DNA from: a virus
IMG/VR virus record: IMGVR_UViG_3300025652_000294
Span: 1 to 32,081 of that record
Reading direction: 5' to 3' (one strand)
DNA: 32,081 nucleotides
Position numbers and translations under genes: made by a program. Every line of letters begins with the position of its first letter. The stretch's first letter is position 1. Shown here piece by piece: positions 5,307 through 31,590 of the stretch. Under the pieces are notes generated by a model. That model did not search any database. It saw nothing but the letters and a program-made list of their open reading frames with translations, and had not been told where the DNA came from.

Positions 5307-6533
5307 ATGGCTTATACAGCAACTACGATTGATAGTATCACTAATGAAGTCTTGCGTTTAGCGCATGAAAAGGCTGCATTTATTGGTACAATTAATCGAC
5401 AATTCGATGACAGTTTTGGTAAAGCAAGCGGTAAGATAGGAGATACTCTCCGCATCCGTGAACCAGCCCGTTACACACGCAGACAAAATAGTCGCGTAAT
5501 GAATGTGCAGGATTCAGTAGAAACCAGTACTTCTTTAGTAGTAGCAACCCAAGACGGTGTTGATATGTCTTTCAACAGCCGTGAAATGAAATTAGACCTA
5601 CAAGACTTTTCTAAGCAACATTTAGATAGTGCTGTAGCTTCTATGATTTCAGGCATTGAATCTGATGTTTTACAGGGTTGTACTCAACAGGTTTACAATG
5701 TAGCTGGAACTCCTGGCACAGCATTAGCTGATTTAGCTGCTGTTGGAACTGCTAGAGCAAGATTAAATCAAGGGCTTGCGCCTAAAGATGGTAATCGCGC
5801 TGTTCAGCTTGATTCTGTTGCAATGGGTGGAATGGTAAACGGCTTAAAAGGTCTTTTCCAAGATGCTACTCAAATTAAAGAACAGTATCGTGAAGGCATG
5901 ATTGGTCGTACAGGAATGGCTGATTTCTATGAAAATGAGCGTGTAAACATTCATACTAATGGATCAGATGTAACTTGTACCCTTGCAGCAGCAGCAGCGG
6001 TTACTGATGGCGGAACTAATGTTACTTTCGCTTCTTTGGCTTCTACTACTACAGCAGGAACAGTATTTACTATTCCAGGTGTATTCCAGTGCCATCCTGA
6101 AACTAAAGCAGCAATGGCTCATTTACAACAATTTACAGTTGTAACTGGCTCAACTACAACTCAGGAAGTTTCACCTCCTACATTCTTAACAGGTGGACGG
6201 CAAAATATTTGTGCTGCTGATGGATCACAATTAGCTGTTGCATATTTTAATGATACTGGTTTGGTTCCTGCTTTTGTTGGCGCAGCTTCAACAACGTATG
6301 CACAAGGCTTGATGTATCATAAAGATGCTTTCACCTTTGCTACTGCTGAACTACCTAAACTAGGTGGCGCACATTCTTGTGTTACAAAGACATTTGATGG
6401 ATTAAGTGTTCGCGTATGGCAAGACGGTGACATCAGAAATGATGAATTGCTAACTCGTATTGATATGCTGTACGGTTACAAAGCAATTAGACCAGCATGG
6501 GCTTGCCGTTTAATCGGTTCTGCATCTGCTTAA
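5307..6533 (+). CDS. Major capsid (coat) protein, P22 type
   Basis: At 408 residues it is close to P22 gp5 (430). It should form the icosahedral shell with an HK97 fold. The N-terminal half has the GDTLRIREPARYTRR strand region and a segment following NSRVMNVQDSVETS. A long inserted region (about 215-300) includes GTVFTIPGVFQCHPET, which closely resembles the P22 coat I-domain junction with its HPETK motif. It is preceded by the RBS GAGGGAG and followed at once by a strong terminator. Base composition is richer in GC and Ala/Thr codons than its neighbours, as expected for a highly expressed gene. Confidence 0.93.
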   Translation: MAYTATTIDSITNEVLRLAHEKAAFIGTINRQFDDSFGKASGKIGDTLRIREPARYTRRQNSRVMNVQDSVETSTSLVVATQDGVDMSFNSREMKLDLQDFSKQHLDSAVASMISGIESDVLQGCTQQVYNVAGTPGTALADLAAVGTARARLNQGLAPKDGNRAVQLDSVAMGGMVNGLKGLFQDATQIKEQYREGMIGRTGMADFYENERVNIHTNGSDVTCTLAAAAAVTDGGTNVTFASLASTTTAGTVFTIPGVFQCHPETKAAMAHLQQFTVVTGSTTTQEVSPPTFLTGGRQNICAADGSQLAVAYFNDTGLVPAFVGAASTTYAQGLMYHKDAFTFATAELPKLGGAHSCVTKTFDGLSVRVWQDGDIRNDELLTRIDMLYGYKAIRPAWACRLIGSASA

Positions 6534-20541: not shown

Positions 20542-20846
20542 ATATAACTCAATCAATATTGCATTTAATCCCAGACGCAAAGTTCATGTGCTGGGAGAAT
20601 GATTATAATCGCATTACATGGAATGATTCTAATACAAAATCTAAACCATCATTGGTCGAGCTAGAGGCTGCATGGGTTGCTGTCGAAGCAAATGAAAAAG
20701 CCATGGCATACAAAGAGCAACGGGTAGCGGCTTATCCTCCTATGACTGATTATCTTGACGGAATTGTAAAAGCTGATAACGTACAAGTTCAAAAGTACAT
20801 TGATGATTGCTTGGCAGTAAAGGCAAAGTATCCCAAGGGTGCGTAA
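20538..20846 (+). CDS. Small fibre-associated protein (chaperone-like)
   Basis: The 102-residue protein has a C-terminal half, YPPMTDYLDGIVKADNVQVQ followed by CLAVKAKYPKG, that matches a motif common in small proteins encoded right after phage tail fibres, where they are usually annotated as tail-fibre assembly or hypothetical proteins. The N-terminal half (FMCWENDYNRITWND) is less typical. It starts at an ATGA junction with the tailspike-like gene and overlaps the thioesterase gene by eight bases. Confidence 0.65.
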   Translation: MNITQSILHLIPDAKFMCWENDYNRITWNDSNTKSKPSLVELEAAWVAVEANEKAMAYKEQRVAAYPPMTDYLDGIVKADNVQVQKYIDDCLAVKAKYPKGA

Positions 20847-21261
20847 ACAAAGATTATTAACTCCCTTTCATACTACCTTGCCAAAGGATTTAGACCCAAC
20901 GTTAAGGATAGTTACTATGCCGACAGATACCAACCATAGCGGCGATGTATTTGGTGGTTGGATAATGTCTCAGGTTGATATAGCTGGCAGTCTCTTGGCA
21001 ATTCGGCGTACCGGAGGCAGAGTAGTTACAGTTGCCGTAGATAATTTCGTATTTAGACACCCCGTCTTTGTTGGTGACGTTGTTAGCTTCTATACCAAGA
21101 TTACTAAAATAGGGCGAACTTCAATTACTATAGATGTCTCCGTGTATGCACAGCGAGGAGCGCGAGAAGGACATGAAGAAATCTGTATTAAAGTAACTGA
21201 AGCGATGTTGACTTATGTGGCAGTAGATGACAAAGGAAAACCGGAGGCTATAAATGAGTAA
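20839..21261 (+). CDS. YciA-type acyl-CoA thioesterase (hotdog fold)
   Basis: The 140-residue protein contains VTMPTDTNHSGDVFGGWIMS followed by QVDIAGS. This is the YciA/acyl-CoA hydrolase signature: N32, D36 and F38-G-G, with D47 at the place of the catalytic acid. The remaining family landmarks follow in order: RVVTVAVDNFVFRHPVFVGD, SFYTKITKIGRTSITIDV and LTYVAVDDKGKP. YciA-type enzymes hydrolyse acyl-CoA to free acid and CoA in the cytoplasm. All core residues appear intact at the usual length. The GTG start overlaps the preceding gene by eight bases, and the next gene overlaps its end, so it is embedded in the late transcript. An unusual phage cargo gene. Confidence 0.85.
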   Translation: MRKQRLLTPFHTTLPKDLDPTLRIVTMPTDTNHSGDVFGGWIMSQVDIAGSLLAIRRTGGRVVTVAVDNFVFRHPVFVGDVVSFYTKITKIGRTSITIDVSVYAQRGAREGHEEICIKVTEAMLTYVAVDDKGKPEAINE

Positions 21262-21523
21262 AGAGCTAATAGATCAGTCAGCGCACTTCGCAAGTAATAT
21301 GTTATTTACGATATTGGTATTTGTACCAGTTCTAAACTGTCTGGTAGTTTTACTTTGGGCTTACACTAGGGAATACTACCAACATAAAGATGAGTCAAAA
21401 TCCTTCTGGGGAAACATTCCAGACTTTAATAGAGACTTATTTTGGAGTTCAATTGGAATTGTTGTAGGATTGCTCATAAGTGGGGCTGTATGGGCGTTTC
21501 TACTGATTGGGTTAAGGGGCTAG
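21254..21523 (+). CDS. Small membrane protein with two transmembrane segments
   Basis: The 89-residue protein has hydrophobic segments at about 16-38 (FTILVFVPVLNCLVVLLWAY) and 66-87 (SSIGIVVGLLISGAVWAFLL), separated by a charged loop (TREYYQHKDESKS). Two short membrane helices at the head of the lysis region could mean a holin, but the small charged loop protein type is also found elsewhere in phages. It overlaps the thioesterase gene by eight bases. The family was not recognised. Confidence 0.65.
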   Translation: MSKELIDQSAHFASNMLFTILVFVPVLNCLVVLLWAYTREYYQHKDESKSFWGNIPDFNRDLFWSSIGIVVGLLISGAVWAFLLIGLRG

Positions 21524-21630: not shown

Positions 21631-21804
21631 ATGGAGATGGATTTGTTTATATTGATAGGAAGTCAGGTTTTGGTCGCTGCTGCCGTGTTTGGCGGAATCC
21701 GTGCTGACCTGAGAAATATGCACGAAAAGATAAAAAACATAGATGGGGATGTTACAAACGCTCACAATAGAATAGATGGTATACTTCTAAACAAGAAATC
21801 ATAA
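21631..21804 (+). CDS. Small holin-like protein (57 residues) with coiled-coil tail
   Basis: A start ATG with AGGGG upstream leads to a 57-residue product. One N-terminal hydrophobic segment (LFILIGSQVLVAAAVFGGI) is followed by an amphipathic heptad-like tail (DLRNMHEKIKNIDGDV, then NAHNRIDGILLNKKS). This is the general shape of small holin or XhlA-like proteins. The stop is 11 bases before the next gene, whose RBS AAGGAG it overlaps. The last 15 residues nearly repeat the C-terminus of the nuclease at 27563-27991. Confidence 0.7.
   Translation: MEMDLFILIGSQVLVAAAVFGGIRADLRNMHEKIKNIDGDVTNAHNRIDGILLNKKS
21755..21777 (+). repeat. 23-base repeat, copy 1 (holin-like gene end)
   Basis: This segment is identical to 27948-27970. 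Over about 48 bases the two flanking regions differ at eight positions, all of which are transitions by my alignment. Both copies code in the same frame for the C-terminal tail NAHNRID-x-ILLNK. Confidence 0.85.
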
Positions 21805-21815
21805 GGAGTTAAATT

Positions 21816-22091
21816 ATGTGGCAAAAAGTTAAGAACTTTATAAGCGAAAGGTTGTCGGAAGCATCAACTTTAAGAGCGATCACTTTGCTTACTGGTTTGG
21901 CAGGGTGGACTCTATCGCCAGAACATGGTGAGATGATCGCAACTCTAGTTGTCTTTGGTTTGGGTTTATTTGGTATCATGCCAGATAAGAAAAAAACAGA
22001 AGGTGAAATTCTTGTAGAAGCTGAAGCGGTAAAAAAAGCAAAACTAGCTGAAGCTAAAGAATATGTGAGGATCGCAGAAGAAGAGGAGTGA
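21816..22091 (+). CDS. Putative holin
   Basis: The 91-residue protein has a short basic/amphipathic N-terminus (MWQKVKNFISERL), two closely spaced hydrophobic stretches (about 20-32 and 41-56: ATLVVFGLGLFGIMP) and a long charged C-terminal helix (KKTEGEILVEAEAVKKAKL). Small phage holins often have this layout, and the gene stands immediately before the DUF5675 and spanin genes. It has the strong RBS AAGGAG. Holins permeabilise the inner membrane at the end of infection. The call rests on topology and location. Confidence 0.65.
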   Translation: MWQKVKNFISERLSEASTLRAITLLTGLAGWTLSPEHGEMIATLVVFGLGLFGIMPDKKKTEGEILVEAEAVKKAKLAEAKEYVRIAEEEE

Positions 22092-22097
22092 CTCAAA

Positions 22098-22490
22098 ATG
22101 GAGTTCAAACTTCAAAGAGTTTATGTCGGAGAGGAAGGGGCTTTTGGAGTCTTGTCAAAAAATGATGAGCCTCCCTTCGCTGTCACGCTGGAAAGAACCT
22201 TCAAGCCGTCAAATGAAGTGGTAGTTCCATACGGCACACATAAGTGTATCAGAACGATGTTTAATAAGGGTGGGTATCCAACCTATGAGATACTGCTGCC
22301 AGAGACTCAACACACTCTAGTAAAATTTCACAAAGGTAATTTAGAGGAACACTCTTTAGGGTGTGTACTAATAGGCGAATCCTTCCATCAGTTCGGTGAT
22401 ATAGCTGGTATTGGCAATAGTAAAGGTGGCTTCAACGAGTTTATGGAACACACCTGCTCGGCTGAAGAGCTTATGTTGCTAGTGTGCTAA
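22098..22490 (+). CDS. DUF5675-like protein in the endolysin position
   Basis: The 130-residue protein has the sequential features FAVTLERTF, VVPYGTHKCIRTMF, TYEILLP and LVKFHKGNLEEHSLGCVLIG. They match the DUF5675 family (an early ...TLE/IE, a PxGxY/H strand, then HxxN..GC). H78 and the S-L-G-C of 86-89 resemble the His...(S/T)-H-G-C active site of YkuD-type L,D-transpeptidases, but the His of SHGC is Leu here. Between a holin-like gene and Rz/Rz1, this is where a phage keeps its endolysin, and no other endolysin is seen in the window. The RBS is GAGGAG. A TAATG junction joins it to Rz. Confidence 0.75.
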   Translation: MEFKLQRVYVGEEGAFGVLSKNDEPPFAVTLERTFKPSNEVVVPYGTHKCIRTMFNKGGYPTYEILLPETQHTLVKFHKGNLEEHSLGCVLIGESFHQFGDIAGIGNSKGGFNEFMEHTCSAEELMLLVC

Positions 22491-23029
22491 TGGTTCAAGC
22501 TGCTATCGTACTGGTTGTTGCTTCCCTATTAACTGGCGCAGGTTTTATAACTGGCAAGAAGTGGGAGCGTTCCGTTTGGCAGCCTGTATATGGGCATTTA
22601 GCATCGCAACTGACTAAACTTCAATCAGACTTAAATATTAAGACAGCGGAATCTTTAGGTGCTTCTTCTACTAGGCTTGCAGAGATAACTGTATACGGGA
22701 AAGTTTCGGAGGTTAAAAATGAATTTGCACAAAAAGAGATTGACCGCAGGGTTGATGCTTACCTTAACAATCTCTCAGATAACGGGCTGCTCCTTTCTTC
22801 CAAAGAAAGAGATTCAGGTAAAAACATTAGCTCCAATCCTTTGTCCAGTTCCGCCAGAAAGTCTTACAAGCGAAGTGGGCAAGATGGACTCTTTATCGGT
22901 CTGGACAGACTTGAAAGAGGAGTTATCGAAAGATTAGTTAGAAGTAGGGACAAGGCTTTGGCCAGGAATCTTCAGTGCAAAGAATATCTCGATGAGCTAG
23001 AGATTAAGATGAAGACTCTGCGCGATTAA
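22490..23029 (+). CDS. Rz-like inner-membrane spanin
   Basis: The 179-residue product starts at the ATG of a TAATG junction (a GTG at 22484 is an alternative). One N-terminal membrane segment (AAIVLVVASLLTGAGFITG) precedes a long charged helical periplasmic domain. Rz-type spanins reach across the periplasm to join Rz1 in the outer membrane and fuse the two membranes after the wall has been cut. An Rz1 ORF with a lipobox lies inside it in the +1 frame, which is decisive for the assignment. Its 3' end overlaps the convergent minus-strand ORF by 26 bases. Confidence 0.82.
   Translation: MVQAAIVLVVASLLTGAGFITGKKWERSVWQPVYGHLASQLTKLQSDLNIKTAESLGASSTRLAEITVYGKVSEVKNEFAQKEIDRRVDAYLNNLSDNGLLLSSKERDSGKNISSNPLSSSARKSYKRSGQDGLFIGLDRLERGVIERLVRSRDKALARNLQCKEYLDELEIKMKTLRD
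22719..22937 (+). CDS. Rz1-like outer-membrane spanin lipoprotein, embedded in Rz
   Basis: This 72-residue product is read in the +1 frame wholly inside the Rz gene. It begins MNLHKKRLTAG, has a hydrophobic core, and a lipobox ITGC puts the lipidated Cys at residue 24, so the mature chain would be about 49 residues, normal for Rz1. A short proline-containing segment (CPVPPE) follows, as in other Rz1 proteins. An independent RBS GGAGG lies six bases before the ATG. Rz and Rz1 together complete lysis of Gram-negative cells. Confidence 0.88.
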   Translation: MNLHKKRLTAGLMLTLTISQITGCSFLPKKEIQVKTLAPILCPVPPESLTSEVGKMDSLSVWTDLKEELSKD

Positions 23030-30702: not shown

Positions 30703-31590
30703 TCATGCTGCGGTTGCGGTGGCTTCCTTATCTTCATTGGCTACCTCAACCCCTTGGATAAAATCAACGGCTTTCTGTGCTTGTCCTGCAGCGGTAAAGA
30801 TTGCCTTTTTATCGCCTTTTAAGACTTTGAGCCATGACTCAATATAGGCAGCGTGTTGCAGTTTGCCTTCAATGCCTAAATCTGCACAAAGGAACGCAGC
30901 TCCTAACTCTGCACAGAGTTCCTCTCTCGCATAGGCAGTATCTCCGAAACGTCCCACAAGGTTGCGATCACAGCGTGTCTTGTGGCTTGTCCAATGGGTT
31001 AGCTCATGCAATGCCGTTGCGTAATAGTCCTCAGGTGTTTTAAAAACATCCTGCACAGGTAGTTGGATATGGTCATGGCTAGGTGAGTAATAGGCAGAGT
31101 CACCGCCGTGTCGAATGTCCGCAGGTTTTAAGCACTCATCAGCTTTGGCGTGTCTTGTTTCTACTGGGGCGTACCATTCCTTCTCCTCTGGTAGTTCGAT
31201 GCCCTCGCAGTCTTCAACGGAAAATACGGTGTAACTCTTTAGCAATGGGATCACCATAAACTCACCCTTTTTGGTTTTGTCTTCAATTTTCAAAGGTGAG
31301 TAGAATGCTATAGCATGACCCTTTGCGCCCTTCTTGACGTTACCGCCTTTCAACTTGGCTTGACGATAGGTTAGGAAGTAGTTGGATTCTGAAACGCCCC
31401 ACAAGATCAGGCGGTTGATGCCACGGTATGCTTTACCAGTTATCAGGTTTTTCGGTAGCAATGATTCACCCCTATAGCCCCCGTCACCTTTCCAAGGCTT
31501 GACCCATGGCACACAGCCAGATTCTAGCTGCTCAATAATGCGATTAGTAACGTCTTGCATCAGGTCTTTTTTTACATAATTTTTTTTCAT
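30703..31590 (-). CDS. ArdC-like antirestriction protein
   Basis: The 295-residue protein has an N-terminal part, QDVTNRIIEQLESGCVPWVK, then GKAYRGINRLILW and FLTYRQAKLKGGNVKKGAKG. This is the single-stranded DNA-binding domain of ArdC/TraC-like proteins. The C-terminal half is a zincin-like metallopeptidase with HELTH (H195, E196, H199) and a downstream acidic helix (AREELCAELGAAFL, about 221-234). Such proteins are thought to shield incoming DNA from host restriction. An early position in the operon fits this. The RBS GAGGTGA precedes the ATG. Confidence 0.88.
   Translation of the reverse strand: MKKNYVKKDLMQDVTNRIIEQLESGCVPWVKPWKGDGGYRGESLLPKNLITGKAYRGINRLILWGVSESNYFLTYRQAKLKGGNVKKGAKGHAIAFYSPLKIEDKTKKGEFMVIPLLKSYTVFSVEDCEGIELPEEKEWYAPVETRHAKADECLKPADIRHGGDSAYYSPSHDHIQLPVQDVFKTPEDYYATALHELTHWTSHKTRCDRNLVGRFGDTAYAREELCAELGAAFLCADLGIEGKLQHAAYIESWLKVLKGDKKAIFTAAGQAQKAVDFIQGVEVANEDKEATATAA

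Follow-up and report, generated by a model that had tools for sequence, protein, structure and literature searches.

A DUF5675 protein with a predicted L,D-transpeptidase fold as the probable endolysin of a P22-portal-type phage

L,D-transpeptidases of the YkuD superfamily (PF03734), including LdtMt1, LdtMt2, and Ldtfm, share a catalytic His and a [ST]xGC motif, and the characterized YkuD enzymes in the open literature mostly build or trim the bacterial cell wall. Their full transpeptidase motif, HXX14-17-[ST]HGC, is followed by an Arg two positions after the Cys (Cys+2), and in E. coli this Arg marks the transpeptidases, whereas the DpaA-like hydrolases lack it (PMC8263019). DpaA, Csd6, and Pgp2 represent a hydrolytic branch of the same fold, and are exported bacterial housekeeping enzymes that trim stem peptides or detach proteins. 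LD-endopeptidase activity has been reported for YkuD enzymes (PMC12729407), but DpaA did not display it (PMC8263019). Another group consists of the Tlde1a-type effectors (Tlde1_dom, PF10908), wall-targeting killers that are delivered between bacteria by type VI secretion and that keep the His of the SHGC motif. Phage endolysins of the M15 peptidase, GH108, and GH19 families, which are encoded in the slot behind the holin gene, have folds and chemistries (zinc peptidases and glycosidases) that are unrelated to those expected for the protein family described here. This family, DUF5675 (PF18925; phrog_1501), is encountered in the open-licence literature as a hypothetical or domain-containing protein for which no function is given, and neither PF18925 nor phrog_1501 has an assigned function. 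Records of crAss-like phages, including crAss001, annotate the family as "L,D-carboxypeptidase/transpeptidase", so that the fold resemblance is already present in public annotation; these genes lie in another genomic setting, carry the name by annotation only, and were not seen to be claimed as endolysins. A search of the open-licence literature yielded no description of phage endolysins of the YkuD type. Moreover, for some phages that encode DUF5675, such as Vibrio phages Virtus and R21Y, no endolysin is named in the corresponding papers.

This paper describes a DUF5675 gene in the virus record IMGVR_UViG_3300025652_000294, which was analysed over its whole length of 32,081 bases (the window). 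The data indicate that this gene probably encodes the endolysin of a P22-portal-type phage, in the form of a minimal YkuD-fold cysteine hydrolase. The proposed endolysin would be built on the L,D-transpeptidase fold, the fold itself being well known. Assignment of DUF5675 to this role would settle the mode of host exit for a large and diverse group of phages, and would add a class of lysis enzymes with a fold otherwise known for building or trimming the wall. Moreover, DUF5675 is a small domain with a defined predicted active site, and can be assayed directly as a peptidoglycan hydrolase.

The window is a P22-like phage record, in which a P22 portal, P22 coat, Erf, Cro, and stabilisation protein were found. 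It spans the whole of a linear virus record without a completeness estimate; since the complete phages with related portals measure 33.6-40.5 kb among the closest matches, one end of the genome may be missing. The DUF5675 gene is located in a compact lysis cassette on the forward strand, with the following features.

21254..21523, + strand: protein of 89 aa, holin or antiholin candidate, with two strongly hydrophobic segments (Kyte-Doolittle window values of 2.76 and 2.59).
21631..21804, + strand: 57-aa holin-like candidate with one N-terminal hydrophobic segment and a heptad-like tail (homologue in L002 at 2392-2571).
21816..22091, + strand: protein of 91 aa with a charged tail and a single, moderately hydrophobic segment, directly 5' of the DUF5675 gene; the holin-like gene of the earlier note.
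22084..22088, + strand: AGGAG ribosome-binding site of the DUF5675 gene, as read from the sequence.
22098..22490, + strand: DUF5675 open reading frame of 130 aa with an ATG start, candidate YkuD-fold endolysin (on the basis of Pfam, conservation, model, and slot swap).
22490..23029, + strand: Rz-like inner-membrane spanin (N-terminal hydrophobic segment, position, and homologues in L002 and L143).
22719..22937, + strand: Rz1-like lipoprotein spanin of the outer membrane, encoded entirely within Rz in the +1 frame, with lipobox ITGC.

The DUF5675 protein is a full-length member of PF18925 (E=8e-11; 42.2 bits against a gathering score of 26.7; residues 5-118) and also matches phrog_1501. The ATG of Rz (22490) overlaps the DUF5675 stop codon as TAATG, although the open reading frame program starts Rz at a GTG at 22484, and the Rz1-like frame has a weak match with the Rz-like spanin family phrog_456 (E=0.011). 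Holins in the window were assigned from hydrophobicity only, and the proteins encoded at 21254..21523 and 21816..22091 gave no confident family match in Pfam and phrog profile scans. The window protein has few direct relatives: a single-protein scan of IMG/VR detected two and a portal search one more. In two independent related loci, L002 (73% identity) and L143, from a 34.9-kb contig of which the portal is 67% identical to the window portal, the cassette has the same order of small membrane proteins, DUF5675, Rz, and embedded Rz1 (lipobox LPGC and LQGC, respectively), and both keep the 21816..22091 protein in the same position. The placement between a holin-like gene and Rz/Rz1, which the earlier note had seen in the window, is thus encountered in all three loci. 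Immediately 5' of the cassette, the window encodes a 4HBT acyl-CoA-thioesterase-like protein (20839-21261, + strand; Pfam 4HBT, E=2.5e-18; phrog_18230), and no thioesterase open reading frame is listed at the corresponding place in L002. Elsewhere in the window, an ArdC-like protein (30703-31590, - strand) with an ArdC N-terminal domain and a zincin-like metallopeptidase domain is a candidate anti-restriction protein.

Pfam scans of the 51 open reading frames in the window revealed no peptidoglycan hydrolase besides the DUF5675 candidate, which bears out the earlier reading that no known endolysin is visible in the window. In phages with related portals, the lysis region contains an M15 peptidase, a GH108 protein, or an annotated endolysin. 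Of six examined portal relatives that lack a DUF5675 annotation, three gave a match with one of five common endolysin families, and in other portal relatives the annotation of the lysis region includes an M15 peptidase or an amidase. When DUF5675 records at large were considered, the same five families were present in just two of 40-42 records. One of these (G020, the record of L032) encodes a phage lysozyme domain at C1:19261-19617 within an open frame of 1754 aa, which is likely virion-associated, and in the other (G011) an M15_3 peptidase is encoded besides DUF5675. Moreover, the small genes that adjoin DUF5675 encode a hydrophobic segment in 61% of the cases, as compared to 14% for genes located 6-10 places away (p=5e-13), and holin families top the 25 families listed beside DUF5675, while none is found among the 25 listed for distant genes.

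The strongest evidence for an endolysin function of DUF5675 was obtained from freshwater phages, in one group of which DUF5675 is preceded by a GTA-type holin; this holin served as bait. The slot behind the homologous holin was intact in 45 of the 48 loci. DUF5675 was the next gene in 11 of these, and known hydrolases took its place in others: GH108 in 15, M15_3 in six, M15_4/VanY in one, and GH19 in one, with GH19 found about 0.5 kb further on in two more. The remaining slots contained one gene that appears lysozyme-like by eye and has no Pfam match, and eight genes that matched neither DUF5675 nor the tested endolysin families. Representative slot genes were confirmed by Pfam, and the others by BLAST to these representatives. 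The exchange could be followed at the DNA level, as L149 (DUF5675) and L155/L156 (M15_3) are 85-95% identical on the upstream side as far as base 5449, close to where the holin gene ends, and identity resumes at 5907/5910 with 89-90% over 2.6 kb, so that essentially the endolysin gene alone differs. L159 (M15_4) displays a swap pattern like that of L155/L156, at 83%. Because known endolysins replace DUF5675 one for one behind near-identical holins, we conclude that DUF5675 fills the endolysin slot in these phages; the DUF5675 protein of the swap lineage and the window protein agree at 30 of 125 aligned positions (about 24% identity). Together with the cassette position and the absence of another hydrolase from the window, the swap supports the candidacy as a peptidoglycan-active endolysin that had been put forward from the window sequence. 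In eight loci (L170-L173 and L175-L178), the holin is about 75% identical to the bait and is followed by a gene that belongs neither to DUF5675 nor to the tested endolysin families, and these genes are possibly further unrecognised lysins.

Comparison with YkuD-type enzymes by structure prediction, a check suggested in the earlier note, was performed with an AlphaFold2 model of the window protein, built from 67 aligned sequences (mean pLDDT 95.9, pTM 0.89). Foldseek alone returned no significant match for this model in the PDB. When VIA-align was run over the top 1000 Foldseek chains, the first eleven entries all belonged to the YkuD superfamily, with 97-109 residues aligned and Z-scores from 8.7 to 4.8 (LdtMt1 8.7, Pgp2 8.6, LdtMab2 8.0, Csd6 7.7, LdtMt2 7.7, Tlde1a 7.0, Ldtfm 7.0, DpaA 6.8, LDTGo 4.8), and the next, unrelated row had a Z-score of 2.7. 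Z-scores of 7 to 9 are by themselves middling, and the weight lies in a single superfamily filling every rank above the gap. The proposed fold is therefore the well-studied YkuD fold, and not a little-studied class as had been supposed. Weak cross-matches were collected by scanning 73 DUF5675 members against 24,736 Pfam models, in which Tlde1_dom (22 members, best E 0.011) and YkuD (six members, best E 0.024) ranked, at sub-threshold level, among the families matched most often besides DUF5675; where inspected, these matches fall on the His-Cys region. The window protein matched neither of the two families in Pfam, staying below the YkuD cut-off. Sequence searches of the PDB, whether with the window protein alone or with a profile of 73 rows, gave nothing relevant, and hhalign against a set of seven YkuD sequences aligned just an 11-column patch around [ST]xGC, with a probability of 1%. 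Since Foldseek alone and the profile-profile comparison gave little, the homology of DUF5675 with YkuD rests on structure and motif.

As had been recognized in the sequence, the window protein contains H78 and S86-L87-G88-C89, a candidate active site that resembles the L,D-transpeptidase motif with its second His replaced by Leu. It reads H-x7-SLGC, and hence keeps the His, Ser, Gly, and Cys of that motif, whereas the complete transpeptidase pattern with Arg at Cys+2 is absent. The conservation of these residues was determined in an alignment of 109 distinct DUF5675 proteins from phage, virus, and genome collections. E32, H78, G88, C89, and S108 are invariant in all 109 members, including the window protein, so that the loss of H78 or C89 from the family, which would have spoken against the assignment, was not encountered; the His was part of some search patterns and its invariance is partly selected there, while the Cys was in none. 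Position 86 is occupied by Thr or Ser in 104 members, and position 87 by His in seven, which thereby have the exact [ST]HGC motif. At Cys+2 the members have Leu, Ile, Gly, or Ala, and none has Arg. DUF5675 thus differs from the YkuD L,D-transpeptidases in its shorter His-Cys spacing, the usual lack of the SHGC His, and the lack of the Cys+2 Arg, the latter two being shared with DpaA, which likewise has a non-His residue in its SxGC. The branch to which the window protein belongs is divergent, with about 20-30% identity to most members. The unusual point is the predicted YkuD fold in an endolysin position, in a minimal form that has neither a signal peptide nor a wall-binding domain. In one member (L092, 10001-10426 of a 102.9-kb contig) the DUF5675 frame is interrupted by a single in-frame stop codon, which the phage perhaps reads as an amino acid.

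On the basis of these data, the 130-aa protein would act as an enzyme with C89 as nucleophile and H78 as base, and with S86 (Ser/Thr in the family) in a supporting role. Because it has no signal peptide, it would collect in the cytoplasm and would need the holin, which would open the inner membrane and give the enzyme access to the wall, after which Rz/Rz1 would complete lysis at the outer membrane. Hydrolysis is expected rather than stitching, because the Arg at Cys+2 is absent and the gene is swapped with lytic enzymes; the predicted target is the meso-DAP to D-Ala bond of the stem peptide, which YkuD enzymes are able to recognise, or the adjoining cross-link, and its cleavage would unlink the sacculus. 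A transpeptidase that strengthens the wall was set aside on the same two grounds.

It is unlikely that the protein is only a YkuD-fold helper that leaves the cutting of the wall to an unrecognised enzyme and itself, as an LD-carboxypeptidase or a DpaA-like amidase, shortens stem peptides or releases lipoproteins of the outer membrane. The LD-carboxypeptidases Csd6 and Pgp2, as well as DpaA, are among its structural neighbours, and the consistent lack of Arg at Cys+2 is a property of DpaA-like hydrolases (PMC8263019). In the swap contigs, however, whole-wall hydrolases are replaced one for one and not supplemented, and the common endolysin families are missing from nearly all DUF5675 records. 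A less probable reading still is that of an antibacterial enzyme like Tlde1a, which would trim stem peptides and exchange D-amino acids, such that lysis follows from failed wall synthesis and the sacculus is not cut directly. Tlde1_dom is the commonest of the weak Pfam cross-matches, Tlde1a is among the structural matches, and its H121-S128-H129-G130-C131 spacing (PMC9638812) almost equals that of H78-S86-L87-G88-C89, with a His-to-Cys distance of 10 in Tlde1a as compared to 11 in DUF5675. The sequence match stays below the cut-off. However, the genes that DUF5675 replaces are direct hydrolases, and endolysins must act fast on existing wall.

Least probable is that the fold match is true, while the protein is inactive or has a function other than lysis, e.g., within the virion or in superinfection exclusion. 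DUF5675 domains are also present inside very large phage proteins. In crAss-like phages the gene adjoins tail and topoisomerase-like genes, so that the role of DUF5675 may vary between phages. In contrast, the invariance of His and Cys in all 109 members, the position in the lysis cassette of the window and its two relatives, and the slot swap all argue against this reading. For the window phage, the endolysin assignment is therefore preferred. More tentatively, and as a reading that is somewhat less likely than not, DUF5675 as a whole may form a separate catalytic class of endolysins, in which a cysteine-dependent YkuD-fold enzyme would dissolve the sacculus through cleavage of the L,D bond between meso-DAP and D-Ala. 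This class would be used across Vibrio, crAss-like, and P22-portal tailed phages, and as a true wall-cutting lysis enzyme in some ssDNA microviruses of 5 kb.

Besides these tailed phages, DUF5675 genes were detected in ssDNA microviruses of 4.8-5.4 kb (L004, MW202581.1, 7-384; PV067912.1; MH992181.1; MT135445.1), where they possibly encode a wall-cutting lysis enzyme in a group that is mostly known for single-gene lysis. Finally, DUF5675-like domains were found in very large phage proteins in BFVD, including A0A1L7N1E2 of Ralstonia phage RP31 (a segment of 1251 aa) and A0A8S5VTR0 (868 aa), which suggests a virion-borne version of the enzyme.
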